The notes beneath the pieces are model-generated. The model saw nothing but the letters and a program-made list of their open reading frames with translations, ran no database searches and was not told the origin of the DNA. The position numbers and the translations under genes are program-made. A DNA stretch of 64,000 nucleotides from Sipunculus nudus (lineage: Eukaryota > Annelida > Sipuncula > Golfingiida > Sipunculidae): NCBI GenBank assembly GCA_026874595.1, contig CM049319.1, forward strand, positions 3,188,601 to 3,252,600, in the 5' to 3' direction. Shown in pieces: positions 2,230 to 44,081 of this stretch (positions within the stretch are counted from its first letter, which is position 1; each line of letters starts with the position of its first letter).

Positions 2230-5200
2230 TTTTAGCTCAGCTGACTGAAAGTCATCTGAGCTATAGGGATCACCTTTTGTCCGTCGTCCGTCCGGCCGTC
2301 CGGCCGTCCGGGCGTCTGTCCGTTAACAGGGCACAAATCGTAACCGCTTGAACTGGAATCTTCTTACTTGACATCCTGGTAGGTCCATGAAAAATCTCCT
2401 TGGAAACCAGAAATTAGGTCTCTGTTACCCATATCCTTCGAGCTATGGGGCCCCAAACTACCCCCCAGAAAAGTAAAAAATTTCATACAAAAACTTCAAT
2501 ATCTCATTAACTACTTGATTGATGGTCATGATTTTTGGCATACATATTGATCATGAGAGGTTCCATCAGTTCCTGAAGACTGGTGGCGCCACCTGTATTT
2601 TTCGATTTTTTACGAATTTTTTTCTCTATTTTTGAGACCTTTAAAAATGTGAACATCTGTTAACAAGGCACAAATCGTAATGACTGGACTTAGAATCTTC
2701 ATTCTCGACACATTGAGAGACCTATGAAAAATCTCCATGGAAACCAGAAATTAGGTCTCTGTTACCCATATCCTTCCAGCTATGGGGCCCCAAACTACCC
2801 CCCAGAAAAGTAAAAAATTTCATACAAAAACTTCAATATCTCATTAAATACTTGACTGAAAGGTGATGTTTTTTGTCATACATATTGATCATGAGATGTT
2901 CCATCACTTCCTGCAGACTGGTGGCGCCACCTATATCGTTCAATTTTTTACGAATTTTTTTCTCTATTTTTGAGACCTTTCAAAATGTAAACATCTGTTA
3001 ACAAGGCACAAATCGTAAAGACTGGACCTAGAATCTTCATTCTTGACACACTGAGAGACCTATAAAAGTCTCCATGGAAACCAGAAATTAGGTCTCTGTT
3101 ACCCATATTCTTCGAGCTATGGAGCCCCAAAGTACCCCCAAGAAAAGTAAAAAATTTCATACAAAAACTTCAGTATCTCATTAACTACTTGAATGATGGT
3201 CATGATTTGTGGCATAACTATTGATCATGAGATGTGTCATCTGTTCCTGCAGACTGGTGGCGCCACCTGTATCGTTCAATTTTTTACGATTTTTTCCTCT
3301 ATTTTTGAGACCTTTAAGGATGCTGTCATCTGTTAGCATGGCACAAATAGTAACGACTGGACCTAGAATCTTCATTCTTGACACACAGGGAGACCCATGA
3401 AAAGTCTCCATGGAAATATGAAATTAGGTCTCTGTTACCCATATCCTTTAAGCTGTGGCACTCCAAAGTACAGCTCAGATTAATGGAAAATTTGATATAA
3501 AAGCTGAAGTATCTGAACAACGAATGCAGGGATGACTATAATTGTTTGCATGGATTTTGATCATGGAGTGTGTCATCAGTTTCTGCAGCCTGGGTGCGCC
3601 AAATCTATTTTTTTTTTTTATTATTTTTTACGAATTGTTTTCTCTTTTTTTTTGAGACCTTTAAAAATGTGAACATCTGTTAGCATGGCACAAATCGTAA
3701 CGACTGGACCTAGAATCTTCATTCTCAATACACTGAGAGACCTATGAAAAGTCTCCATGGAAACCAGAAATTAGGTCTCTGTTACCCATATCCTTCGAGC
3801 TATGGGGCCTCAAAGTACCCCCCCAGAGTAGTCAAAAATTTCATACAAAAACTTCAATATCTCAATAACTACATCACTGATGGTCATGATTTTTGGCATA
3901 CATATTGATTATGAGATGTTCCATCAGTTCCTGCAGACTGGTGGCGCCACCTATATTGTTTCATTTTTTACGATTTCTTCCTCTATTTTTGAGACCTTTA
4001 AGGATGCTGTCATCTGTTAGCATGGCACATATCGTAACGACTTGACCTAGAATCTTCATTCTCAATACACTGAGAGACCTATGAAAAGTCTCCATGGAAA
4101 CCAGAAATTAGGTCTCTGTTACCCATATCCTTTAAGCTATGGGGCCCCAAAGTATCCCCCAGAGTAGTCAAAAATTTCATACAAAAACTTCAATATCTCA
4201 ATAACTACATCCCTGATGGTCATGATTTGTGGCATAACTATTGATCAAGAGGTGTTCCATCAGTTCCTGCAGACTGGTGGCGCCACCTATATTGTTTGAT
4301 TTATTTACGATTTCTTCCTCTATTTTTGAGAGCTTTAAGGATGCTGTCATCTGTTAGCATGGCACAAATCATAACGACTGGACCTAGAATCTTCATTCTT
4401 GACACACAGGGAGACCCATGAAAATTCTCCATTGAAACCTGAAATTAGGTCTCTGTTACCCATATTCTTTAGGCTGTATGGCTCCAAAATACCCCCCAGA
4501 ATAATGGAAAATTTGATTCAAAAAGTGCAGTATCTCAATAACTACAACACTGATGGTCATGATTTTTGGCATACATATTGATCATGAGCTGTTCCTTCAG
4601 TTTCTGCAGAGAGGGTGCGCCACCTCTATTTTTTTCAAATTTTTACGAATTTTTTTCTCTTTTTTCGAGACCTTTGAAGATGTGGTTATCTATCAAGAGG
4701 GTACAAATTGCAACAACTGGACCTAGAAACTTCATTCTTGTCATGCAAGGAGGCCCATGAAGAGTGCCTGTGGAAACTTGAAATTAGGTCTCTGTTACCC
4801 ATATCCTTCAAGCTATAGGACTCTGAAGTATCCCTTAGAATAATGGACAATTTGATACAAGAGCTGAAGTATCTGAACAACTAATACGGAGATCATCATG
4901 ATTCTTTGTATGGATATTGACCATCAAGTGTTTTTAGCTCAGCTGACTGTAAGTCATCTGAAGTATCCCTCAGAATAATGGACAATTTGATACAAAAGCT
5001 CAAGTATCTGAACAACTAATGCATTAATCACCATGATTCTTTGCATGGATATTGATCATGGAGTGTTTTATCAATTTCTGGAGATTGGTGGCGCCACCTA
5101 TATTTTTTTTATTTTTTACGATTTTTTTTCTCTACTTTTGTGATCTTTAAACATTTGGTCATCTGTAAACAGGGCACAAATCATAATGACTGGACCTAGA

Positions 5201-9694: not shown

Positions 9695-12465
9695 AGCTCA
9701 TCTGAGATAAAGGTATGGCGCATTGTCCGTCGTCGGTCCGGTCGTCCGTTAGCAGGGCACAAATTGTTACCGCTTACCGTAGAAGCCTGTTACAAAAAAT
9801 CTCCTTGGAAACCTAAAATAAGGTCACTGCGACCCATATCCTCCAAGCTATGGGGCTTGTTAATACCCCCCCCCCCCCCGAAATAATAAAAAAATTGATA
9901 CTTAACCTCCAATATCTTGATAATTAATACATGGATTGTCATGAATCTTGCCTTGAATATTGGCCATGAATAGTTTTGTCAATAAAAGAAAAGTGGTGGC
10001 GCCACGTGTATTTATCATATTTTACGAATATTTTTATTTTTTAGCTCAGCTGACTGTAAGTCACCTGAGCTATAGCGATCACGCTTTGTCCGTCGTCCGT
10101 CCGGCACAAATCCTAAGGACTGGACCTAGAATCTTCTCTCTTGACAAGCAGGGTGGCCCATGAAAAGTCTCTGTGGAAACCTGGAATAAGGTCTCTGTTA
10201 CCCATATTCTTCGAGCTATGGGGCTCCGAAGTACCCTCCCCCCCCCCCCCCCAGAATAATGGAAAATTTGAAACAAAAGCTCAAGTATCTGAACAACTAA
10301 TGAATTGATCACCATGATTCTTTGTATAGATATTGATCATGGAGTGTTTCATCAGTTTCTGCAGACTGGTAGCGCCACCTGTATTTTTTATATTTTACGA
10401 TTTTTGAAACAAAAGCTCCAGTATCTGAACAACATTATGCATTGACAACCTAACGATTGTTTTCTCTATTTTTGAGACCTCTTAAGATGCAGTCATCTGT
10501 TAACAGGGCACAAATCCTAAAGACTGGACCTAGAATCTTCTTTCTTGACATGCAGGGAGGCCCATAAAATGTCTCTGTGGAAACCAGGAAAAAGGTCTGT
10601 TACCCACATTCTTCGAGCTGTGGGGTTCTGAAGTACTCCCCTGAATAATGGAAAATTTGATACAAAATCTCAAATATCTGAACTAATGCATGGATAACCA
10701 TGATTTTTTGCGTGGCTATTGGTCATGGAATGTTTCATTAGTTTCTGCGGACTGGTGGCGCCACCTCTATTTTTTAACAAATTTTTTTCTCTATTTTTGA
10801 GACCTCTTAAGATGCGGTCATCTGTTAACAGGGCACAAATCCTAAGGACTGGATCTAGAATCTTCTTTCTTGACATCCAGGGAGGCCCATGAAATGTCTC
10901 TGTGGTAACCAGGAAAAAGGTTTCTGTTACCCATATTCTTCGAGCTGTGTGGCTCTGAAGAACCCCCCTGAATTATGGAAAATTTAATACAAAAGCTCAA
11001 GTATCTGAACAACTAATGCATGGATAACCATGATTTTTTGCGTGGCTAATGGTCATGGAATGTTTCATTAGTTTCTGCAGACTGGTGGCGCCACCTGAAT
11101 TTTTTTACGAATATTTTCTTTTTTTTTTTTAGACCTCTTAAGATGGGGTCATCTGTTAACAGGGCTCAAGTCCTAAGAACTGGACCTAGAATCTTCTCTC
11201 TTGAAATGCAGGAATGCCAATGAAAAGACTCTGTGCAAACCTGGAATAAGGTCTCTGTTATTCATATTCATCGAGCTATGGGGCTCCGAAGTACCTCTCG
11301 AATGGAACATTTGAAACAAAAGCTCAATTATCTGAACAACTGATGCATTGATCACCACGATTCTTTTCATAGATATTGATCATGAAGTGTTTATCAGTTT
11401 CTGCAGGCTGGTGGCGCTACCTGTATTTTTTTTATTTTTTACGATTTTTTCTCTATTTTTGAGACCTTGAAAATGCGGTCATCTGTTAACAAGGCACAAA
11501 TCATAACAACTAGACCTAGAATCTTCTCTCTTAATATGCAAGGAGGTCCATGCAAAGTCTCCTTGGAAACCTAACATTATGTCTCTGTTACCCATATCCT
11601 CTGAGCTATGGGGCTCAGTAGACCCCAAAGAATAACTTAAAATTTGATACAAAAGCTCTAGTATCTCAACAAATTGTGCATTGATTGCCATAATTCTTTG
11701 CATGCATTTTCATCATGGAGTGTTTAATCTGTTCTTGCAGACTGGTCGCGTCACCTGGATTTTTCCCAATTTTTATGCATTTTCTCTCTTTTTTGAGACT
11801 TTCAAAGATGCGGCCGTCTGTAGTCAGGGCAGGGAGGTCATTGAAAAATATCCTTGGAAACCTGAAATTAGGTCTCTGGTACCCATATTCTCTGAGCTGT
11901 GGGGCTTATTAGCGCCTCTAGCATATTTGAAAATTTGATAACAAAGCAGAGCACAAATTATAACCATTGGACCTAGAATCTTCAAACTTAAAATCCAGGG
12001 AGGTCCATGAAAAGTCTCCTTGAAAACATGAAATTAGGTCTCTGATACCCATAATCTTTGAGCAATGTGGCTTATAAGCACACCCCAGAATATTTGAAAA
12101 TTTCAGACTAAAGTAGGGCGCAAATGGTAACCATTGGACCAAGAATCTTCTCACTTGGCATCCTGAGAATTCCTCAAATGTTCTCTCCTCAAAACCTGAA
12201 ATTGGGTCACTGTGACCTATATACCAGAGTTTTGGGGTATGTTTGAGCATTCCAGAAATAATGAAAAATACACACAAATTGCCAGGTTACTCAGGAAAGG
12301 CTGGTAGGATTGTCATCACATTTGGTGTGCTTATGGGTCTTGACGAACTTAAGCTAATATGCATGAATGATGATGCCACCTATCTTATCTTAATTAGTTT
12401 TCTGTGCAAGGGCATATTGTCAACATGTCAGTCGGCAGAGCGTCATGACCCACTTGTTCCCCTAT
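9695..12465. repeat. Second array of ~335-bp repeat units
   Basis: Same family as the array at 2.2-6.0 kb. It opens with TTTTAGCTCATCTGAG and GTCCGTCGTCGGTCCG, repeats the anchor GGGCACAAATC about eight times, and closes near 12435-12455 with GCGTCATGACCCACTTGTT. A second opening motif occurs near 10040. GGTGGCGCCAC palindromes recur near 9994, 10754 and 11083. Poly-C expansions occur near 9866-9879 and 10236-10252. It has no coding potential beyond repeat-derived frames. Confidence 0.8.
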
Positions 12466-31200: not shown

Positions 31201-34200
31201 ACGTACGTATGCAGGTCGTAATCGTCGGAACATCCGGTTAACACCGGTTCCATTAGGAACCTTGTACTAAGTTATGGTCAGGGCACGAAACTTCAAGTGT
31301 CAGATGGAACCTCCTAACGGAGAAAAGAGTTCTAGATGGCAATATGTAAGTTCTTAACAGAACCTTCAAAAACCCTTTTTTAGAATGTAGGGCCTTGTCG
31401 GTGAGGTAACACGACTGTTATTTGCAGACCCTACAAGAAGGGGGGGGGGGGTTAGTCGGTTCAATAACGGGACCCGCCCCGGCCAGGAATTTCCTTAAGG
31501 GCAAATGTTATAAACTTTAGAAGGCTCATTTTTTTGTATTGATATAATATTGTCAGGGTAATCTCAGAGGGCCTGGACGGGCCAGGACTGTGTCCTATAT
31601 AAGGCTCTAGACAACGCAAAAAAAAGTTTGTTTTTCCATTGTGCTCAGTCTTACTTCAGATTGGAGGAAACCGGAGGACCAGTAGAAATCAATCGAATTA
31701 GGATGGGCTTAAACGAAACACTCTATAGTTACACTGTTATAACAGCCACACCGGGGATCGATCCCGGTTCCAGCGGAAAGTATTATACCATTGTCCAGGT
31801 CTTAGGGTTCACATGCAGTATCACTGTGACAATGCCAGCAAAAAAAACCTGTCTCCATCAGTAAATTTGAAATACACCACTTGACTTGCAAGTAGGCAGC
31901 ATTCCTTATATTTAAACAACGTGACTTACCTGTTGGCAGTATTCATTTCAAATAAAAAAACGAGACTTAATGACCAATGGGCAGTAATTCTTTTAAACAA
32001 AGCACGTGATTTACTTGTAGGAAGTACTCCTTTTAGATAATTTAGGTGACTTTCAAGTAGGCAGTATTTCTTTTAAAAAAATTACGTGACTAACCACAAG
32101 GCGGTATTCCTTTCATATAAACCACGTGACTTACCAGTAGGCAGTATTCTTGACACCAGGTAGGGGTAGGCGTTATTGGCACATCCGCTCGGGTTTCCAC
32201 ACACCTCTTGGCACTTCTGTGGGTTTGCACAGGCGACCTCGTCTGAAACGGAATGTATATAGTCAGAGTGTAACGTTCACAAATACCAGAGCAATGTCGG
32301 ACAATTCAAAAACCAAGGAAAGAACTTATTTACATCTACGGAAATAATTTTCATTCTCAGACTTATTTATATCATGGTTTATTTTGATTTATCAGCATAT
32401 AAGCTTCACTTCACCGCACCGGCGTGCTTAAGAAGACTCGGATACCCGAGTATGATTATATGACATTAATTATGGTAAAGCTGAACTAGGTTTAAATGAC
32501 GCACATACATACATTATGGGATGGACATTAAACACACCAAGTGTTTGTAGCAACGTAGGCCAATGTTATTTCGAGACTATTATGTTCTTCATACGGTATT
32601 ATTATAGAATATTTACCTGGGTACAAGATTCTGCTTGTCATTCCCGGGATGATAAAGAACAGGAACGGTAGAACCTTCAGGTAGGCCGCCAGTAGGACGC
32701 CGCCCTTAGCGTGGGATACGCTCTTAGCTGACAGCGACCTCTGTACGCAGGCCTGGAAAAATATTATAGCCAGATACATCATCATCCTCAGTTATTCACA
32801 TTTGACAGTTCTTTAAATAGAATAAGAGACTAGCAGACTAATATGAGATGAGCCACCCAAGACAAGAACCAACATCAGATGTGCATTGCTCAAACAGGAT
32901 TATTCTGGGTATTGTGACCAGGTGTCATGGCGTCTCACATGGGTTACCAAACATTCTGGGTAATTACAAACATACACATACATAGAGTAGAACGACCAAT
33001 GGTTGGAGTTTAACAGAGCTCGGCAGGCGTCATTTTGCCTAGGATTAAGCAAGACAGTAATATTTTTCCGAGTGACACTTGTCGATAACTGTAAAACACC
33101 AGTCAAGAGCTTAGATTATTCTGAAATAAAAATAGACGCGTTTTAAACGGAAAGTTTATATTTTTCATATACATATGTAATAAGAGGAAAAATGGAATTA
33201 TTACGTGTATCTGGATCTCGACTTTTCTGTTATTAACTCTAAACTCTGTCAAAGAATTTAGCTTCATTCTCATGTAAAACGCACTATTTTCACCAGAGAA
33301 CTGTCACTTGTTTTTTTTTTTTTTATTATTATCTTGGAACTGTACATTTAAGTAAGGAGAGTATATTCAGATGATTGGTACTATAAATTATTGTATATTA
33401 GTATGCCGTATCATGTATCGAAGTTAGACTGGGAACGTAGGTTCAGGGAACTCAGGTGTTTCATTTGATGTTGGTTTCAGTTCAGTCATAATTCAGTGAG
33501 AATTGTTCCTTGTCAGATTCGTCAGCGTTAGTATAGACGGTTTCCTGAAATAAGATTGTTAACTATAGATTTCAAAGGCAACGCACCTGAAACATAATTT
33601 CTCATAATTTTTGTCTCCGGGGGCGTTTTCATTTAAATATTCATGCATTGAACAACAGGTATAATAATAGTAAGGCGATAGGCCAACATCGTTTCGGATG
33701 TGTGACGTAGGCATTAGCATATCAGCTGAAGAAACAAGAGTAAAGGCACATTTCTCATCATCATCTGCGCGCTATATGGTGGCGTATGGCAAATTTGTAG
33801 GTCCAGGGTTGTCTGTAAACTGATCAGCTAAGGGACGGTGTATTGTATGTCAGAGTCTTCGGGCGGCCAACATAATCTCAGTAACGGACGTGTAAGTTGT
33901 TTTTATAGAAAGACTTATAAACAGCCGATGTTTATCTGCCGTGGTGAAGCCCATGCAGCGAACAGTCCAGAGGACAAATGATATGCTGAGCTGCGTATGT
34001 GGTACCGAATATTGTAATGTGCGGTGGCATATTTGGGTACTGATTACTGGATTTACCCAGCGTGATACTACAGTGATAGACATTGTCTGAGTGATGCTAC
34101 ATTGAAGGCTGTCAGCCTGTCTGTCAGTGATTGAGAGTACTACCTCAAGTGTAGACATTGTGTCAAGCCAGTGATTTGTTTGACGGCAAGAAGCGCTTGT

Positions 34201-34506: not shown

Positions 34507-34569
<63 letters not shown>

Positions 34570-37500
34570 TGGTCTGTGCACCATGAATATGTTGCTAGGA
34601 TAGTGATACCGAAAACCATCCCTGGCCAGGGATAGTCCGCCTCGGGGGACCGGAAGATGTGGAAAGCGTCCTCCCGTGGCAAACCGCAAGTCCGGTTACC
34701 GTAATGTGAGTAATCTAGAATAGTTTCATTCGATGCCGACATAGGGTACTGCTTTGTAATGCCTTCCCAACCTCCAACACGGTTCAGGCCTTTAAAAAAG
34801 AAACAAGTTGTAGAAAACCATGTGGTATTATCCACTAAGGGTCTTTACACTACAGTTTCCTCGTAATAACTTTTTTTATGAAATATAAGAAAACAAATAA
34901 GCGAAATAGGCGCTAATCTGCTGGTACTTTCTTGTATCCACTGTGTGGTGATATTTTTTAAAGCTGACATAAAATGGTGAATTAAATCATAACTAATAAA
35001 TTGATGTTAACACCTTTTTTGATAATTCATAATAGTGTTTGAAGAATGAATTATAAATTTAAAACAATCATATTTATCAAATCTTTGATTAGTAAATTAT
35101 AAATAAAAACAAAAATAAATAACAATTTTCAATAATAAGCTAAGATAAATAATAACTGTTGAGTAATAAAGAATGATATTAAGATCGTAATATGAAGAAT
35201 GAAAACAAGAACAAAGAAACCTGGAAATTGGTAGAATTGTCAGCACAGATGAGTACATGATTTGTTATTTCTACCTATTATTGCAGTGACGAATGCCCCT
35301 ATGATCAAGATGACGGTCTGAATGGCTTCCGTCCACAGTACTGCAGTGAAGCCACCTATAGGTGGATAAGTGAAATATCCCTTGAAACGCTCTTCACAAC
35401 ATAACGATTTACGTGAACGGTCACATGGTTTGCTTGAGCGGTTTTCACACTTATGGCTTAAACCGTCACATGTTACCAAAATGAACTTGATATATCTTTA
35501 CCATTTTGTATAATCATAGTGGCAAATACGCTATACCGTTAACGTATATGAAGGACGTCTCGAGTTCGAGGTTACGTGGTTACGTGGTATGCATTATTTC
35601 AACTCGTAATTCATCTGCTACAGATGTTTTAATTATAATTTTTACTGGCTTAATTAAACTCGTAAAATGCTACTTGTTTTCTCACTGTCTAGTATATTTT
35701 ACTGAGTCTGATCATTTTCTGCAGAACAAGTAACTTACCGATCATCGTGTAGAGAGCCGTTAACCCAACGATCGAAACCACTGACAAGTATAAGTCTAAT
35801 TTGAAGATCTCCGTGATAAAAAGTGCTCCTGCATACAGCTGAATCTAAAGGATTAGAAGTATAAAAAAATGCAAATTCATATTTGTGAATTATATCATAT
35901 TTTCATTAAAAAATTGTTCCCATGTAATAATATACCTTCTTTATCTGTTACTTGTTTTTTATCGATATTTATCCGTCCATTTTCCCCCTTATTAACAAAC
36001 TAAATGTTCTTAAAATATACAGTTCATCGAAAGTATGAATGAAATTTGTATGTGTATAAACATATACAAAAAAATAACATTTAAATTAAAAAAGGAATTT
36101 TACCATCATTTATGATTATATGATGTCGTGCAACCTGGTAACATGCGGTCAAAAAAAAGTTGTTAACTACATTATAAAAACAATATGAGTATATGAACCT
36201 CATCAATAAATTTGTATCGCATGGAATGTTTTGCTTGACTTTTGCAGGAATAATGACGCGAGTTTTTCAATTTAATATTAATTTTTTTTGCTATGAACTT
36301 GAGAAAGTGTTTTAAAGTTGAAAAAAAATACACAAACCGGAGTCACGCCCAAGATCGCCATTAATACGGTAATCCCGGCAAGTAGCACATGCGTCCTGAC
36401 TCCTCCGTACCGTAGTTTTAGGTACTGCAGCAAGGTATAGCACTGAAATAGAAAGTTATCCTATATTTAGCCTCATCCTGTAGGTGTGAGAGGCGTGTAG
36501 GGGTTGATGAGATTGTTTAATATATGTGTCAAGTTATTTTTCGGGGGACTTCTCAGGACGCATTAAAAGCAAAACCACTGGATTTTTTTCTTCTTTTTTT
36601 TTCTCTACCGAGTCTGTGCTAAACTTCCAATACGATACGATTATCCAAACGGACGTTTGGTTATGATTACAGTAAAAGGTAACAGATTTGCTCCTGATAT
36701 TCATTTTTAGCAAACCTGTGAGCTTATGCTGTGGCGCAGCGTCGTCCATCCTCCGCCCGCCGTCGTCCGTACGCTTTTAAGACACCAGGCCTATACCTGC
36801 CACCCTTCTTATCTATATTGGAATGACCCATTAGTAGGCCATCTTATTGTAAACTGGCTGGCCCTGAGTGCCGGGCGCAAAGATAGAAAACTCTTCTGGT
36901 TGCCCTTGAATGATGCAGACGTGGACCACTGGTCAGCACTAGGTTTAGTCATTTATACGTATTAAGGGGCTAAAGGATAATCGACATGAGGCGAAGTTCA
37001 GTAGCCTGCCGCGACCCTTCTAGCTCGCTTTTTTGTCACGTTAAACTATCAGACTGGAAGTATAATGTTATGGGCAGATCTTTCGGAAATTCTGGCATTT
37101 AAACCTTTAATTCTGCACGTTAACCCATGCTATCTCAAAAACCGTTGGAGCAAGCATTACCAAATTTTTATTCATCTACAAAACTCCTTCGGATTTTGTT
37201 TATTTTTTTTTTTTTGCTATCTGCATTTACTTGGATTTTATAGAGGAAAAAAGCAAAAAATAAATTAAAAAAAAAAATCTTCTTCTCCGAAATTGTCCAG
37301 CCAAATGTGTAATATTTCATAGAAACAATCTCTGAAACTATCTCTCCAAAGTGTGTTCGAATGGTTCCAGTTAGGTGAATTTCGGCCGAGTTACAGGATG
37401 CTGAACTTAATCATTTGGCTAAAAAAGAATACTAAAGTAACAATATCAGAAACGGCTAGATCTATCATCAACAAATGTTATGCAAATATTGGTCATATGA

Positions 37501-40500
37501 CTCATATATGAATTTCTGTACAAGGGTGATCGGTCATCAGGACATTAACCCATTATTTTTCAAGAATAGAAGGAGCTACCATCCCCATATTTTATGCAAA
37601 AATCTGTCATATATCAAATGTTCTGGGATTGAGCGTCTTGTGGCGCCACATGCAATAACTTTTAAAATAAAATTTTACCTTTAGAAATCTTCTTCTCTGA
37701 AATCATTCAGCCAAATTGTTCAACATTTCACAGAAATTATCCCAGAGATAAGCTCTCTCAAGTTTGTTCAAATGATTTGATGAATTTAGGCCGAGTCACA
37801 GGAATTTGAATTTGGCAAAATAGGATTACTGACATAACGATCTCAGAAACGACAGGAGCAAGTTTTGTGCAAATGTTGGTCACATGACTCATATTTGAAA
37901 ATGCAGTTTTTGTGGTGCCACCTATATCGATCCTTTTTTTACCGACAAAAAAACTCATAATTTTAATCGCGTTTAGACTCCTTATAATTTTAGACGTGTT
38001 ATAATTTAAGACTCCTTCAGTTTAAAATGTTTCATGATGAAACTGTCAAGCTGAATCGTTCAATTTTTTCCAGTATTATCCTAGGGTAGGGTTCTTTTAA
38101 TTGTATAAGAATAGATTGGATTTGTTGATTTTTGAAAGAGTCACAGAAAGCTGAAGTTGGTCTTGCGGCAATTAGTAAGCCTATTTCAAAGCCAGGAACA
38201 GGTCAAGAGTTTACTTATTGCAGCCAGGTACAGGTCAAGAGTTTACTCAGCGCAGTTGCTGGAGCAAGCAATTCCTTCCAGTTCACTTGGGGCAACTGCC
38301 TTTCTCACCTAAGCCTGGCTAGCCCAAGCATCTTTGATGGCTTTCTCGTTCACAAGACTGGTGTCGCCACCTTCAAAGACTTTACCACAATGTATGTGCC
38401 TGCTTATTTCTAAGGAGGAATTTTATATGTCAGCCTAAAATCGCGCATATTTATACATAACGGATTACTTTGTCGTATACAAGACTGGTGGTGCCACCTA
38501 CAATAGTTTTTGCACAGTTTTTTGTCCCTGCTTATTTCTTAAGAAGGGTTTGATATATCAGCCTGAAATTGGGCATATGTATACATCTCGGATAGCCACT
38601 TAGAAGCATTTTTGTGTTGTGTGCACCCATGCCAGTATTTCAGCAGTGATGTATCTGTAATTGGTTTTTGTTTAAATTGCTTAGTACTTGCATTGTTCAT
38701 GTACATATATTACACATGTCTTTGAAAGGTATTGGTTCAGCATTGAAGCATTATATTTGGTGTATATATCCCATTGCACAGGTACGCATTAGGCCTGTAG
38801 GCCTTGTTTATCCTGATCTGATTTTCCCGGTAATACACTATATAGCCTAATAATCCAAATCAAATTTTCCGGAAACTGCTCTTATGAACTAAGGATATGG
38901 CCATACCCGGTTGCTTTAAATGGTTTCATGATATTTACATTACATCACATAGGACACCAAATAGTTTCTTTATTATGTATTTAAGGAAAATGGTCATTAG
39001 ACACATCGTATTATAATCGTTATGGATTTTTAAATTTAGTTTGGAAGTAGTTACCTCCACTTTTCTAATGTATTTTTACTGTTCCTTGGCGGGCACTGAA
39101 GTGGTACGTGTATCTTCCTGTAAGATTTCGCAGCATGCAATTATCCCAGGGGTCGCTCTGGGCCAGCCAGCACTAGTATATACTGGGGCAAGGGTTGTGC
39201 TTATCACGCAACGAATATAAACCCAGGCCATCGATTGGGCGGGGGAAAGCCAAGTACCTGTCACTGTCGGATTTGGACTCGCAGCTCCCGATATACCAGA
39301 TCAGTGTTCAGATATTCTAACAACTCAGCCTTAGAGTAAAAAATTAGGAGGACCTTGCCCAAGAAATTTGAACAACATGACTAAACGTTACATGTAAATG
39401 TTAATGCAGAAATATTTTTTGTATCTTACCCCACTGGATCTGTACACAGGTAGAAGAATCCAACCAAACGCTACCAACATAAACATGGCCTACAAAGACA
39501 ACGTTACCGACATGAACATCGCCTACAAAGCAACGCTGCCAACATTAACATGGCCTACAAAGACAACGCTACCAACATTAACATGGCTTACAACGACAAC
39601 GCTACCAACATAGACATGGCCTACAAAGACAACACTACCAACATTAACATGGCCTACAAAGACAACACTACCAACATTAACATGGCCTACAAAGACAACG
39701 CTACCAACATAAATATGGCCTACAAAGACTATGCTACCAACATAAACATGGCCTACAAAGACAATGCTACCAACATAACATGGCCTACAAAGACAATGCT
39801 ACCAACATGACATGGCCTACAAAGACAACGCTACCAACATAAACATGGCCTACAAAGACAACGCTACCAACATAAACATGGCCTACAAAGACAACGCTAC
39901 CAACATAAACATGGCCTACAAAGACGACGCTACCAACATAAACATGGCCTACAAAGACAACGCTCCCAACATAAACATGGCCTACAAAGACAACGCTACC
40001 AACATTAACATGGCCTACAAAGACAACGCTACCAACATTAACATGGCCTACAAAGACAACGCTACCAACATAAACATGACCTTTAAAGACGACGCTACCA
40101 ACATAAACATGGCCTACAAAGACAACGCTACCAACATAAACATGGCCTACAAAGACAACGCTACCAACAAAAACATGGCCTACAAAGACAACGCTACCAA
40201 CATTAACATGGCCTACAAAGACAACGCTACCAACATAAACATGGCCTACAAAGACAACGCTACCAACATAAACATGACCTTCAAAGACAACGCAACCAAC
40301 ATTAACATGGCCTACAAAGACAACGCTGCCAACATGAACATCGCCTACAAAGACAACGCTGCCAACATTAACATGGCCTACAAAGACAACGCTGCCAACA
40401 TTATCATGGCCTACAAAGACAACGCTACCAATATAAACATGGCCTACAAAGACAACGCTACCAACATAAACATGGCCTACAAAGACAACGCTACCAACAT

Positions 40501-43500
40501 TAACATGGCCTACAAAGACAACGCTACCAACATTAACATGGCTTACAAAGACAACGCTACCAACATAGACATGGCCTACAAAGACAACACTACCAACATT
40601 AACATGGCCTACAAAGACAACACTACCAACATTAACATGGCCTACAAAGACAACGCTACCAACATAAACATGGCCTACAAAGACAACGCTACCAACATAA
40701 ACATGGCCTACAAAGACAACGCTACCAACATAAACATGGCCTACAAAGACTATGCTACCAACATAAACATGGCCTACAAAGACAATGCTACCAACATGAC
40801 ATGGCCTACAAAGACAATGCTACCAACATGACATGGCCTACAAAGACAACGCTACCAACATAAACATGGCCTACAAAGACAACGCTACCAACATAAACAT
40901 GGCCTACAAAGACAACGCTACCAACAAAAACATGGCCTACAAAGACAACGCTACCAACATAAACATGGCCTACAAAGACGGCGCTACCAACATAAACATG
41001 GCCTACAAAGACAACGCTACCAACATAAACATGGCCTACAAAGACAACGCTACCAACATAAACATGGCCTACAAAGACAACGCTACCAACATTAACATGG
41101 TCTACAAAGACAACGCTACCAACATTAACATGGCCTACAAAGACAACGCTACCAACATAAACATGACCTTCAAAGACAACGCTACCAACATAAACATGGC
41201 CTACAAGGAAAGAGTTTGTAGAATATCCTTTAATCAATTTAGATTGATCATAAAGACTGCATAGTAATTAATAAGTTTTTTTATGTAAAATTGAAATTTT
41301 AAATTGTACAATAATATAATTAAAGATGCAGATAACTGAACAAAAGTTTTAGTGAGCTGCCACAAGTTTAAGCTCAGGACGCTTACAGCAACCAGTATCG
41401 CCTACTCCTCATACTTTTTTAACTGTAATTCTCGTGCTTGAAACAAAACCAAACTTGCGTCTATGTATGTGCGTCACTGTGCTAGTTTTCTCGTGTGTAC
41501 GTGTGTGAGAGTGCGTGAGCGTGCCTGCGTGCGCGTGATACCTACATGCCACTCAAACATGACGACAGATATACCGGAAGCCGCGGCGGACCCAGCCAGA
41601 CCAATAAACAAGGGAGCTCCCATATTGGTGGCGAAAGTAGGCGTGCAAATCTAGGTACGTGAAATGCGTGATAAAGGATATATCAGGTATTAACCAACAC
41701 CCATAACATACAGGTTATCTATCCTTAAAAATAAAGGTAATATTGTCATTGTTAAAAAAAATAAAGAAATACATCATGTTAAATTTATTAAATCAAATAT
41801 AGTATTCAGCGACCAATAATGTGCAAGACAAAACTTGGCCGATATTAATACCATCCAGAAAGCGTACCTTCTAAACATTAGCAACAATGTATTATCTTTC
41901 ACTCGGAGGCGCTAGAGTTAGGATATGTTCTTTTATCGTATGGCTACGTTCCTCATCACTATTCGGACAACGCTTATTACAGGTCTAGGATTTACCATTG
42001 AAGACTGAAATAAACTCACCAGCCACAAGTTGCTGCACTGTCCAGCCATGAAGTTTTGGGCGCTTCCTGTTTTGGCTCTACATGTTGTCTAGATGTAATT
42101 ATACATATATTCACGTATATAAGTTTGGAATATATATGTTTATATTATTTTACATGTATATATGCTAAAATATAATATATTATGTTGTAACCTATTATAT
42201 TATGTTATATCATGTTTCATAATGATATAATTATATTATATTATATATTATTATATTATTTAAGGTTTATGAAAAATGACTGAACGCTTAAACATTGTAT
42301 ATTAAGCCTATTATAAAGGTACTTGGTACCTTCCTTGACCTCCCTTAATTAAAACGTTCATTTCTCAGTATATCTAGATTTTCGGATGAACTCCGACACT
42401 TATGTTGCTGTATCTTTGGGAATCGCGGCTTCAATGTACTCTTTAGCGGAGTAGATTTTTCATAAGTAAAGGTTCCAACAACAATTTAACCGCATCGCTC
42501 TTCTGGTTCTTGAAAAGTGGAAACTTAAGGACATGTCTGTATGTTCTAAGACTTCTGTAAACCCCCTCACCGGGTGGTACCGTCATGGGTTCTACCTGAA
42601 ACCCAAGTTTTATTGCTCTGTTTTATTCTCCAGGTTGATATCAAACGATGGAATTTTGATTACTGTTACGTTGATTAACCGTAATTCATCTTAATGTTTT
42701 GCATTTTACCCTTTCAGCGGGTCACCAGTGCTTTGTTTATAATTTTCTAAATGTCCCGTTGTGCACATGTAGGTAATAAATAAAAGATTAGTATTTATTA
42801 TTTGTGCCGTGATAAACTTGCCCATATTAAGATTATCATATAAACATTTATGAAAAAAATAACCAGACCAGTTATTCAAATGTGTGTGGAGATATAAAGC
42901 GATGCTCAGCAAAATTTCCATCAGACGGCCGGTAAATAGTTAAACAAACGAAGTAATTAAAAATGGTCTGTTTCATATTAGAAATTAGTTTGAAAATTAA
43001 ACTTTTTTTATTTCTTAATGGAACATTATATGGCTTCGGAAGGCATTTGAAGGGCTTGTTTGTGTGATTATGCTTGTTCCCAGATGATCATAGCACTCTG
43101 TGAACCGCAGGCCGCACAATAGGTGTACAACAATTACAGAGGAAACGGTACCCCCTACACGGGGTATGACAACACTTCTGTATTGATTACATGTCATCAG
43201 AGTGATTACGTACTTATCATTCCTAGTTCTGTCAAGTAAGTATCTACAAGTACATCAGCGCCAGCATGATAGAGAAGTGACAACGAGAACGCATGTTGTT
43301 CTCAGACGCTAGACAACTAGCAATTTAAATAGAAACTGGTCATCAGATACATTAAGTTATTTACAATTTAAGGTCTACCTCTAGGATCTGCAATGTTTGC
43401 ACAGTTTGCGCTGGGTAGTATGTTGACATATTTGTTTGCTTAAATATTTTTTATTAACGCATTATAACTTGAGTTATAAGAGCGCTTTAAATGCTCTCTG

Positions 43501-44081
43501 TAAGGAAGAAAGATTTCTTGTTTACAGAAATAATATCTCTTAAAGTTCCCGATGAATGGTAATAAAATTTTCTGCAAGGCTGAGCTATATAGAACAGGGG
43601 TGTAGTTATTACATTTTGTGTAAATATACATCCAGGAAATTTCGTTGGAGGAGGTATGTGCTCTTTGACTGCACTCTAGCAGTTATATTAATGATGTCTG
43701 TTTATTTAGATAAGGGGAGATAACCTCGTTCGGAAAGCCTGTCTGATAAACATCTGTAACTTTGATATATAATGTAGATATATTTTTCCTCGTATTAAAA
43801 TGTATAAATACAGTAAACTCCCGCCAGGAAGACGACAACCCCTACATGACCACGACCTTTTGCTCTTGCTAGTTACTTACACTACTGACTCGGTCAGTGC
43901 TGATAGTCTCGCATGTATAGTTTTCTGTGTTATATTGTATGCGGGGTTTTTACTCTGGTACATAGAAAATTGGTTTTAACATTGTGTCTCTTACCCAGAA
44001 TCCGACGCCGAGAATCAACGCAAAATAAACCACCATAGCCAGTATGTCCGGCCAGCCGAACTGCGGTGTCGCTGTGGCCAT
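25032..44081 (-). CDS. SLC5-A: SGLT-like sodium/solute cotransporter, 15 coding exons, 645 aa
   Basis: Membrane cotransporter of the SLC5 (SGLT) family, which couples Na+ entry to uptake of sugars or related small solutes. Exons, in transcript order: 44081-43995, 42088-42020, 41650-41546, 39489-39430, 36442-36338, 35844-35739, 35355-35275, 34789-34569, 32752-32617, 32242-32135, 28340-28135, 27502-27389, 26794-26573, 25885-25792, 25255-25032. Lengths sum to 1938 nt, all phases agree and all introns are GT-AG. Family landmarks: [29 protein letters not shown], and a C-terminal membrane segment ending HAFFA. Compared with the human SGLT1 sugar site (N78, H83, E102, Y290, W291, K321, Q457), the equivalents are N61, L66, E85, S273, W274, K304 and Q440. 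Two of seven differ, so the substrate may not be glucose. The exact SLC5 subfamily is not assigned. Confidence 0.93.
25792..25885 (-). CDS. SLC5-A exon 14
   Basis: Codes residues 541-571: [19 protein letters not shown], then an acidic/basic intracellular stretch. Acceptor TTATAG, donor CCCG|GTAGGT (phase 1). Seven codons shorter than the equivalent SLC5-B exon; an acidic block is missing. Confidence 0.92.
26573..26794 (-). CDS. SLC5-A exon 13
   Basis: Codes residues 467-540: [52 protein letters not shown], and [11 protein letters not shown]. Contains two membrane helices and the family's NYLHYAI motif. Acceptor ATACAG, donor CAG|GTAATA. SLC5-B has a clearly homologous exon at 63676-63897. 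Confidence 0.95.
26924..27041. repeat. Poly-G and poly-C runs in an SLC5-A intron
   Basis: A G-run (about 26924-26933) and a C-run (about 27026-27040) lie 90 bp apart in the intron between exons 12 and 13, able to pair or to form quadruplex or i-motif structures. No repeat family recognised. Confidence 0.7.
27389..27502 (-). CDS. SLC5-A exon 12
   Basis: Codes residues 429-466: [20 protein letters not shown], then a helix ending FWPRATEK. Matches SGLT SGQLFDYIQSITSYLGPP..IFWKRVNE; Q440 is the sugar-site glutamine. Acceptor CTGTAG, donor AAG|GTACTC, phase 0. Confidence 0.94.
28135..28340 (-). CDS. SLC5-A exon 11
   Basis: Codes residues 360-428: [20 protein letters not shown], then [12 protein letters not shown] (Na+-site serines S375/S376), [14 protein letters not shown] and a membrane segment ending WVPILQ. 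One of the best conserved exons in the family. Acceptor CATAAG, donor CAG|GTGAAT (phase 0). It equals two SGLT1 exons fused. Confidence 0.95.
28888..31395. repeat. AGGTTCTATAGAACC-rich repeat patches in an intron
   Basis: Two patches (28.89-29.33 and 31.14-31.39 kb) are rich in AGGTTCT/AGAACCT in both orientations; the outer edges CTATAAGAAAAAAGGCTT and ACCCTTTTTTAGAATG are weakly inverted. This suggests a foldback or MITE family, possibly one element interrupted by 29.33-31.14 kb. That middle part contains a diverged local duplication (CCAGGCAGATGTAT near 29985 and 30375) and a TA tract near 31050-31100. Confidence 0.4.
31735..31800 (-). other. tRNA-like fragment in an intron
   Basis: On the minus strand GGGATCGATCCCCGG resembles a pol III B box, preceded in tRNA-like spacing by TGGACAATGG. 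No complete cloverleaf can be drawn, so this is more likely a SINE or tRNA relic than a functional tRNA gene. Confidence 0.3.
31865..32155 (-). repeat. 39-46 bp array built from the exon ending at 32135 and its donor, ~7 copies
   Basis: On the gene strand the true junction AATACTGCCTACTG|GTAAG with TCACGTGG is followed by about six diverged copies of the same block, each with an AAyACTGCC core, a donor-like stretch and a T-rich tail. One distal copy (junction 31930/31929) reads CCAACAG|GTAAGTCACG, a better donor than the genuine one. Read-through past the true donor meets a stop (TAA) in the second copy. Copies are less similar to each other than those of the 33-bp array, so this is older or less homogenised. 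Confidence 0.85.
32135..32242 (-). CDS. SLC5-A exon 10, donor end amplified
   Basis: Codes residues 324-360: [20 protein letters not shown], then [15 protein letters not shown]. The four cysteines match the extracellular loop of SGLT proteins. Acceptor CCGTTTCAG, donor ACTG|GTAAGT (phase 1). The last ~15 nt of this exon and the donor form the unit of the tandem array immediately downstream. Confidence 0.94.
32617..32752 (-). CDS. SLC5-A exon 9 in transcript order
   Basis: Codes residues 279-324: [18 protein letters not shown], then [15 protein letters not shown] and SRILYP. Matches SGLT VIVQRCLSAKNMSHVKGG..YLKLMPM..PGMISRILY. Lysine K304 corresponds to the sugar-site lysine. Acceptor TTTTTCCAG, donor CCAG|GTAAAT (phase 1). 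Confidence 0.94.
33285..34440. repeat. Dispersed repeat, partial match at 59.78-60.46 kb
   Basis: Lies in the intron between the exons at 34569 and 32752. Shared blocks with 59.78-60.46 kb include GAACTGT..ACTTGTT, AACTGTACAT, a TAGATTTCAAAGG / TAGATTTCGAAGG block and GGTGGAACGCCTCTCC versus TGGAGCGCCACTCC. A minus-strand open frame of 133 codons (33850-34251) has no recognisable domain. Family unknown. Confidence 0.4.
34510..34568 (-). repeat. (GA)n microsatellite starting at a splice donor
   Basis: About 55 bp of uninterrupted CT on the plus strand, that is (GA)n on the gene strand, beginning within the donor GTGAGAGA of the exon ending at 34569. The 5' splice site is thus the edge of a length-variable microsatellite. 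Confidence 0.93.
34569..34789 (-). CDS. SLC5-A exon 8
   Basis: Codes residues 205-278: [10 protein letters not shown], an extracellular loop with NET and NRT glycosylation sequons, then [19 protein letters not shown] and SWCTDQ. The SGLT sugar-site tyrosine before tryptophan (YW) is SW here. Acceptor TTTAAAG. The donor CAG|GTGAGAGAGAGA opens straight into a (GA)n tract. In the short text this is also called the exon with the GA donor. Confidence 0.93.
35275..35355 (-). CDS. SLC5-A exon 7
   Basis: Codes residues 178-205: [20 protein letters not shown], then AFVTAII. Equivalent to SGLT [20 protein letters not shown]. Acceptor CCTATAG, donor ATAG|GTAGAA, phases 1/1. Confidence 0.93.
35739..35844 (-). 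CDS. SLC5-A exon 6
   Basis: Codes residues 143-178 (last split): [20 protein letters not shown], then a helix ending GLTALYTMI. Matches SGLT DIFSGAIFI..NLYLA..ITALYTI. Acceptor CTTTAG, donor ATCG|GTAAGT (phase 1). Confidence 0.93.
36338..36442 (-). CDS. SLC5-A exon 5
   Basis: Codes residues 108-142: [14 protein letters not shown], then a membrane segment ending GVTP. Equivalent to SGLT VVTMPEYLRKRFGG. Acceptor TATTTCAG, donor CCG|GTTTGT (a weak donor), phase 0. Confidence 0.88.
36700..38600. repeat. Diverged dispersed repeat in an SLC5-A intron
   Basis: Opens with TGTGAGCTTATGCTGTGGC and GTCGTCCATCCTCCGCCC, a form common in bivalve dispersed repeats, and continues with blocks such as TTCTTCTCCGAAATTGTCCA / TTCTTCTCTGAAATCATTCA, TGGTCATATGACTCATAT / TGGTCACATGACTCATAT and GTGGTGCCACC. 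Non-coding; ends not resolved. Confidence 0.55.
39075..39350 (-). repeat. tRNA-derived SINE-like sequence
   Basis: On the minus strand AAGGCTGAGTTGTTAGAA resembles an A box and GAGTCCAAATCC, about 40 nt later, resembles a B box, followed by an unrelated body to about 39075. This arrangement is typical of a tRNA-derived SINE. It lies in the intron after exon 4. The frame containing APVYTSAG in its body looks transporter-like but has no splice sites. Confidence 0.5.
39430..39489 (-). CDS. SLC5-A exon 4, fed by the acceptor array
   Basis: Only 60 nt, residues 88-107: [20 protein letters not shown], matching the SGLT segment ALxLxxxLGWxFxPxYxxxG. Acceptor CTTTGTAG|GCC, donor GGG|GTAAGA, phase 0. 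The first 18-20 nt of this exon together with the preceding acceptor are the unit of the minisatellite that fills the upstream intron. Only this last acceptor copy is joined to the FGWILLP coding sequence. Confidence 0.88.
39484..41206 (-). repeat. 33-bp minisatellite built from the intron 3 / exon 4 splice acceptor, ~52 copies
   Basis: On the gene strand each unit reads TTGTCTTTGTAG followed by GCCATGTTTATGTTGGTAGC, that is, acceptor plus exon start. The unit is 33 bp (11 codons). A plausible branch-point motif (TTTAT) lies about 23 nt before each AG. In the exon 4 frame the acceptor TAG is a stop codon, so use of most upstream copies gives about ten codons and a stop; units with AAG instead (near 40080, 40280, 41165) read on to the next unit. 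The outermost copy at 41200/41201 has a better tract (CTCTTTCCTTGTAG) and is probably the original acceptor. The opposite strand is open in one frame (repeats of [11 protein letters not shown]), which I regard as a by-product. Confidence 0.95.
41546..41650 (-). CDS. SLC5-A exon 3
   Basis: Codes residues 53-87: [16 protein letters not shown], then [14 protein letters not shown]. Equivalent to SGLT1 FASNIGSGHF..GFEWN, with the Na+-site A and N kept but the sugar-site histidine replaced by leucine. Acceptor ACCTAG, donor CAT|GTAGGT, phase 0. The downstream intron is mostly the 33-bp acceptor array. Confidence 0.9.
42020..42088 (-). CDS. SLC5-A exon 2
   Basis: Codes residues 30-52, including [20 protein letters not shown], equivalent to the family's KNRG..xxFFLAGRSMxWW region. 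Acceptor CATCTAG, donor CTG|GTGAGT, phase 0 at both ends. The family's FLAGRSM motif is changed to FMAGQCS, the most divergent part of the protein. Confidence 0.72.
43995..44081 (-). CDS. SLC5-A exon 1
   Basis: Codes residues 1-29: [16 protein letters not shown], then a hydrophobic stretch ending VGFW, followed by GTAAGA (phase 0). This is the first membrane helix. The start is the first ATG, close to the expected family N-terminus. Confidence 0.88.

Follow-up and report, generated by a model that had tools for sequence, protein, structure and literature searches.

Sipunculus nudus contig CM049319.1 (assembly GCA_026874595.1) carries, between positions 3,188,601 and 3,252,600, an intact-looking gene of the SLC5/SGLT (sugar-transporter) type, here called gene A, in which most of intron 3 consists of tandem copies of the 3' splice acceptor of exon 4. 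The locus raises the question of how a gene keeps one correct acceptor beside some 50 near-identical decoys and what such an array does to its output. This stretch of 64,000 nucleotides is referred to below as the window; positions are counted from its first base, and gene A lies on its minus strand.

Anatomy, age and turnover of the array

Tandem Repeats Finder (TRF) reported a repeat at 39467-41206 with a period of 33, 52.9 copies and a 94% match. Wrap-around alignment resolved it into 52 full units, running from 41200 down to 39490, and a 53rd, coding copy formed by the first 23 nt of exon 4 itself (39489 to 39467), which is identical to the unit consensus. The unit is made up of GCCATGTTTATGTTGGTAGCGTT, the first 23 nt of exon 4, and GTCTTTGTAG, the 10-nt end of the intron; 47 units are 33 nt long and 5 are 32 nt, and they differ from one another in patterned ways. 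The array is real and not a product of chance, given its length, the identity of its units and the fact that its last copy matches conserved coding sequence. The boundary of exon 4 is secure, since joined exons 3, 4 and 5 (with the first residue of exon 5 entered as V, not C) aligned with human SGLT1 (7sl8) at an E value of 1e-30 and without gaps at the 3/4 and 4/5 junctions.

A preliminary description of the window had counted about 52 copies of the gene's own 3' splice acceptor and put their share of intron 3 at some 84%, and both figures hold, the measured share being 83% (1711 of 2056 nt). It had noted an AG in every copy checked. The AG is in register in 50 of the 52 units, and the remaining two read TAA/G (a slash marks the splice junction) with the AG moved by one base. 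A correction concerns the upstream-most acceptor, at 41201, which ends in CTCTTTCCTTGTAG and differs from a plain unit. This upstream-most site is probably the old native acceptor. The same description had placed a stop after about ten codons from most upstream copies and expected full-length protein only from the copy next to exon 4, and both points were borne out. The 33 bp of a unit correspond to eleven codons, and in the frame of the exon every consensus unit ends in TAG, as do 47 of the 52 units in array A. Splicing to any of the 104 AG dinucleotides of the array except the last would lose the open, in-frame exon 4, and the median distance from the array AGs to a stop is 10 codons. In the related arrays of genes B, C and D, described below, the open in-frame AGs number 1 of 182, 1 of 221 and 1 of 204, respectively. 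The array was also considered as a protein-coding repeat and rejected, its open frames of up to 350 amino acids on both strands being a by-product of a 33-bp period that is a multiple of three.

We estimate at roughly three in four the probability that array A is a splice-junction minisatellite of the "mirage" kind described from amphioxus, grown by unequal exchange or slippage, with the exon-proximal acceptor mostly used. A first tandem duplication of a 33-bp segment spanning the intron 3/exon 4 boundary would have been followed by further gains of units through unequal exchange or slippage, block duplications included. Since whole-unit gain or loss would always leave an intact acceptor and exon start beside the exon, such growth could be tolerated. 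The spliceosome would mostly use the last acceptor and the remaining copies would be removed with the intron, while leakage to neighboring copies would yield early-stop transcripts that qualify for nonsense-mediated decay, a loss that is probably small.

A whole-genome search together with inspection of the neighborhood placed gene A in a six-gene SLC5 cluster, in which A, B and E are followed by a second block with C, D and F. The blocks adjoin in tandem (C14:3210830-3285000, the end of which is a cut-off set for the comparison, and C14:3288219-3366622) and measure about 80 kb with three SLC5 genes each. Among the long alignments listed, the pairs A/C, B/D and E/F are 92-97.7% identical, with synonymous divergences (dS) of 0.022, 0.032 and 0.009, respectively; the two blocks may have arisen by a recent segmental duplication or represent two haplotypes that were assembled in line. 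Alignment of the exon 4 acceptor arrays gave 52 units in A, 90 in B, 118 in C and 103 in D (52.9, 92.6, 118.9 and 105.6 copies by TRF, which includes degenerate edge units), and no such array was found in the corresponding short introns of E and F (614 and 641 nt).

Exon 4 of B and D starts with GCCATGATAATGTTGGTGGCG, and the array consensus of both genes is that of A. Because exon 4 of B has diverged from the shared unit, the array appears to predate the A/B split; alternatively, units may have been transferred between the genes after it. Genes A and B differ with a dS of 0.25, a nonsynonymous divergence (dN) of 0.07 and a dN/dS of 0.28 over 437 codons, the dN/dS of B and D is 0.03, and each of A to D gave 12 exon matches without stops. 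Judged from these comparisons, purifying selection has continued to act on the gene while dozens of decoy acceptors stood in front of exon 4. The genes evidently tolerate the array, since it predates a duplication across which the protein has been under purifying selection.

The units have turned over. The flanks of A and C are about 96% identical, yet the arrays count 52 and 118 units, a length instability that holds whether the two are alleles or duplicates. Only 6 unit types are common to A and C, and 33 are common to B and D, whose arrays contain 56 and 58 types, respectively. In B, as judged by eye, the native upstream acceptor has seemingly been lost and the array adjoins other intron sequence.

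Junction arrays elsewhere in the genome

Junction arrays recur in the genome, though not everywhere. Three distant paralogues (M1 to M3), fetched solely because they are paralogues, each carry a different array, built from the acceptor of exon 5 and continuous with the real exon: M1 has 20.9 copies of a 41-bp unit (74% match), M2 has 8.0 of a 45-bp unit and M3 has 10.6 of a 41-bp unit. By eye, the units of M2 and M3 break at one and the same exon 5 codon, a point in favor of a common origin of these two. A degenerate search pattern for the exon 5 start, allowing one mismatch and blind to arrays like that of M1, found tandem repeats only in M2 and M3 among the matches listed. A decayed donor array is present at exon 10 of both A and C (7.0 copies and 67% match in C), and a single old copy of the acceptor junction lies about 226 bp upstream of exon 8 in M1 (88%). 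A repeat at M3:328-661 was rejected as an exon 9 donor array, as it begins about 230 nt past the exon end and by eye contains no exon edge.

In the SLC6 family, 3 of 20 loci had junction copies. At locus L029, picked because three consecutive matches had been seen there, a 117-bp unit is repeated 3.3 times at an acceptor. A donor of L031 bears a 126-bp unit in 2.8 copies (75% match), and in L038 a single old copy of an acceptor lies about 143 bp upstream of it (78%). At a further SLC6 locus (L032, 52-690), a 15-bp minisatellite fills the intron nearly to the acceptor, the exon start not being included. When exon edges were compared with their own flanks, 10 of 238 scored >30 (9 acceptors and 1 donor); these edges comprise 120 acceptors and 118 donors, near-identical paralogues included. 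The skew toward acceptors is weak evidence, the SLC6 donor flanks being short (about 300 nt), and no P value was drawn from the exon-edge null, which included homologous paralogue flanks.

These arrays could have arisen by chance wherever minisatellites are dense, splice sites not being favored, and we give this possibility somewhat less than even odds. Arrays of 2.5 or more copies with a period of at least 20 make up 8% of the 166 kb considered, junction arrays included, and junction copies were absent from all 20 P450 loci, tested at family-match edges. The P450 result speaks against general recurrence, and therefore junctions are not uniformly hit. Among arrays of M1 to M3 with a period of 20-60 and at least 4 copies, 3 of 5 straddle a splice acceptor, which argues for a bias; with a hand-estimated expectation of 4.5% per array (about 22 junctions, a 41-bp seed and 20 kb), the binomial P value is about 0.0009 if the M1 to M3 arrays are independent and about 0.13 if all three descend from one event. 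Filtering alone might be enough, in that a junction-spanning duplication would keep one intact junction and an exon-internal one would alter the protein.

Choice of acceptor and transporter output

Several results weigh against a preference of the spliceosome for the last acceptor. In a crude matrix built from 10 acceptors of gene A, which themselves score -5.9 to 6.9 when left out in turn, the terminal acceptor scores 5.1 against a decoy mean of 4.1, 8 of 51 decoys score at or above 5.1, and the upstream-edge acceptor reaches 8.0. The terminal acceptor thus hardly stands out from the decoys, and site choice cannot be put down to local strength. An AG-exclusion zone was tried as the discriminating feature. 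The last unit of A and C has lost an internal AG, leaving an AG-free stretch of 31 nt, compared with 12 nt in 45 of 51 decoys of A and 94 of 117 of C and with 16-89 nt at ten other acceptors of the gene; however, the stretch is 12 nt in B and D, and the feature was rejected. The one feature found to set the last acceptor apart in all four genes is that it lies close to the body of exon 4 and its donor, which points to exon definition.

Donors within the array, which would make micro-exons, were judged unlikely, the GT sites of the unit scoring -5.1 to 1.5. The consensus unit has AG/GC and thus differs from the AGGT of dual-specific sites; AG/GT occurs in 3 of 52 units in A, 11 of 90 in B, 0 of 118 in C and 14 of 103 in D, with weak donor scores (-0.5 and 0.6) compared with 5.3 for the donor of exon 3. 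By the same data, the juxtaposed acceptor and donor of a recursive splicing ratchet point is not a feature of the array.

An array of this kind could conceivably act as a copy-number rheostat, in which a sizeable share of transcripts is spliced upstream and destroyed and array length sets transporter output, perhaps under selection. The preliminary description had likewise proposed that copy number could tune the output of the transporter, or that the array could act as a splicing timer or sink. A regulatory reading is possible from the sequence, but we consider the rheostat unlikely. In each gene a single array AG leaves exon 4 open and in frame, stops following shortly elsewhere, as described above, and many decoys lie near the used site by the crude score. 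Of the 363 units in the four arrays, 353 have the AG in register, and the AG columns are less variable than the column mean in each of them (0.004-0.019 versus 0.033-0.064). Ranked for low variability among 32 neighboring column pairs, however, the AG pair is 17th in A, 5th in B, 12th in C and 6th in D, and although it is among the four least variable when pooled (4th), the arrays of A and C, and likewise those of B and D, do not count as independent here; given these ranks, selection on the AG is not convincing. Published precedents point both ways. The copy number of a donor-side junction repeat in human CBS is tied to reduced enzyme activity by the title of Lievers 2001, as listed among the references of PMC5188458, whereas amphioxus mirages were reported, from reverse transcription-PCR, to leave regular splicing undisturbed (PMC3087553). 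This reported normal splicing of mirages, together with the purifying selection between A and B after the array had formed, argues against heavy abortion of transcripts. A broader proposal, that junction minisatellites are recurrent and long-lived in this genome, were seeded repeatedly at SLC5/SLC6 splice sites and, where longest, serve as copy-number-variable sinks lowering transporter output through unproductive splicing, seems to us slightly less probable still.

There is little to recommend an assembly artefact or an inflated copy number, with C, D and F perhaps the other haplotype of A, B and E placed in tandem. The blocks adjoin, they are 92-97.7% identical in the long alignments listed, and their dS values of 0.009-0.032 fall in the range of high heterozygosity. 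On the other hand, the unit differences are patterned, with dozens of unit types in B and D, junction arrays also occur elsewhere in the genome, and the array in A stands even with C as its allele. Equally improbable is a damaging load, by which the arrays mostly ruin the paralogues and these are decaying genes, as the predicted decoy load is large but the stop-free exon matches of A to D and the low dN/dS values of A-B and B-D speak against decay.

Gene model, other features and known systems

Gene A was modelled with 12 exons from 44081 to 27389 (Table 1), which give 466 stop-free codons; further C-terminal pieces, outside this model, start from 26803, 26689 and 26221. A (GA)29 run at 34509-34566 starts right at the donor of exon 8 (CAG/GTGAGAGAGAG...), placing a microsatellite on a splice site of gene A. 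Elsewhere in the window, tandem arrays of 337- and 330-bp units occupy 2322-4816 and 10453-11821, with the common sequence GTTAACA.GGCACAAATC...ACTGGACCTAGAATCTTC, and no known RNA family was found within the window at gathering scores. In the genome, three SLC5 exon 8 matches lie within 2.7 kb on one strand at C7:62790159-62792781 and are possibly alternative exons. A PF00083 search gave only 9 single-exon-like matches, and searches with the GFP and molluscan haemocyanin families, like their controls, gave no match. Long intronless SNF-transporter matches, some with one stop, occur on the high-numbered contigs C61, C62, C72, C83, C89, C102, C122, C131 and C133, which are perhaps from a bacterial contaminant or symbiont.

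Table 1. Features of gene A and its intron 3 array in the window
Feature	Position	Strand	Remarks
Exon 1	43995..44081	minus	from ATG
Exon 2	42020..42088	minus	
Exon 3	41546..41650	minus	donor CAT/GTAGGT at 41545
Unique part of intron 3	41201..41545	minus	345 nt; ends in upstream-most acceptor CTCTTTCCTTGTAG/GCC
Minisatellite	39490..41200	minus	52 units of 33 bp
Exon 4	39430..39489	minus	60 nt, phase 0/0; acceptor AG 39491-39490, donor GTAAGA at 39429
Exon 5	36338..36442	minus	without array in gene A
Exon 6	35844-35739	minus	
Exon 7	35355-35275	minus	
Exon 8	34789-34569	minus	
Exon 9	32752-32617	minus	
Exon 10	32242-32135	minus	
Decayed exon 10 splice donor array	31980..32149	minus	units of ~40 bp, ACTGCCTACTG/GTAAGTCACGTGG...
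Exon 11	28340-28135	minus	
Exon 12	27502-27389	minus	

If about 50 decoys that are near-identical over 33 bp are indeed ignored, the locus is a natural test of how the spliceosome chooses an acceptor beyond local sequence, and genes A to D offer a ready length series of 52, 90, 118 and 103 units. The cluster also indicates that minisatellites of this kind can outlast a gene duplication in genes under purifying selection. That they recur at other exons and in a second gene family is relevant to how introns lengthen, how they are gained and how annotation errors arise.

The preliminary description was right about the junction copies and the single productive acceptor, but its view that no class of tandem splice-site arrays had been described does not stand, given the amphioxus mirages and the donor-side counterparts in CBS and ABCA7. 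Mirages are minisatellite-like tandem duplications over an intron-exon boundary, on either side of the exon, with many units keeping splice signals (PMC3087553). They were described in Adh3 and the globins BflGb6 and BflGb9, with PGBD5 and troponin C as further cases (PMC3087553; PMC3902484), and the cases we found under this name are cephalochordate. The array in gene A resembles them in that its unit holds the intron end and the exon start (10 and 23 nt), it reaches up to the true exon, the edge of which forms the 53rd and last copy, splice signals are kept in many units (50 of 52 in A and 353 of 363 in A to D), and its length is unstable (52 versus 118 units in A and C). By these structural features it appears to belong to a known, if little-noticed, class of repeat, in which it exceeds the published globin examples in size. 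BflGb6 has 6 versus 3 units of 150-160 bp in two haplotypes (PMC3087553), whereas here the 33-bp units number 52-118, lie in frame with the exon and have been kept through gene duplication.

In human CBS, a 31-bp variable number of tandem repeats (VNTR), c.1444_1467+7, lies across the exon 13/intron 13 boundary in 16-21 copies (PMC2630376; PMC1395315), and by its name its unit likewise joins exon and intron, with 24 nt of exon end and 7 nt of intron; this VNTR is, however, on the donor side and shorter. The 844ins68 insertion of the same gene, in which the exon-proximal copy is used (PMC2630376), comprises only two copies. In human ABCA7, a 25-bp VNTR of about 12-427 units starts at the splice donor of intron 18, and retention of a single unit leads to a stop codon and decay, while skipping of exon 19 increases with length (PMC5954066); this array too is on the donor side, and its unit begins at the GT, hence exon sequence is not repeated. 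UBC carries a tandem array of dual-specific splice sites (PMC10809524), which is similar as a regular array of usable splice sites within one gene, but these lie between coding repeats whose removal or retention keeps the frame, whereas here all but one array AG lose it. Tandem repeats at exon-intron boundaries have also been counted in human segmental duplications (PMC2812944). In the open-licence literature, we found no acceptor-side junction array with this many units. Compared with these systems, what is new in S. nudus is the size of the array, its recurrence and its long retention.

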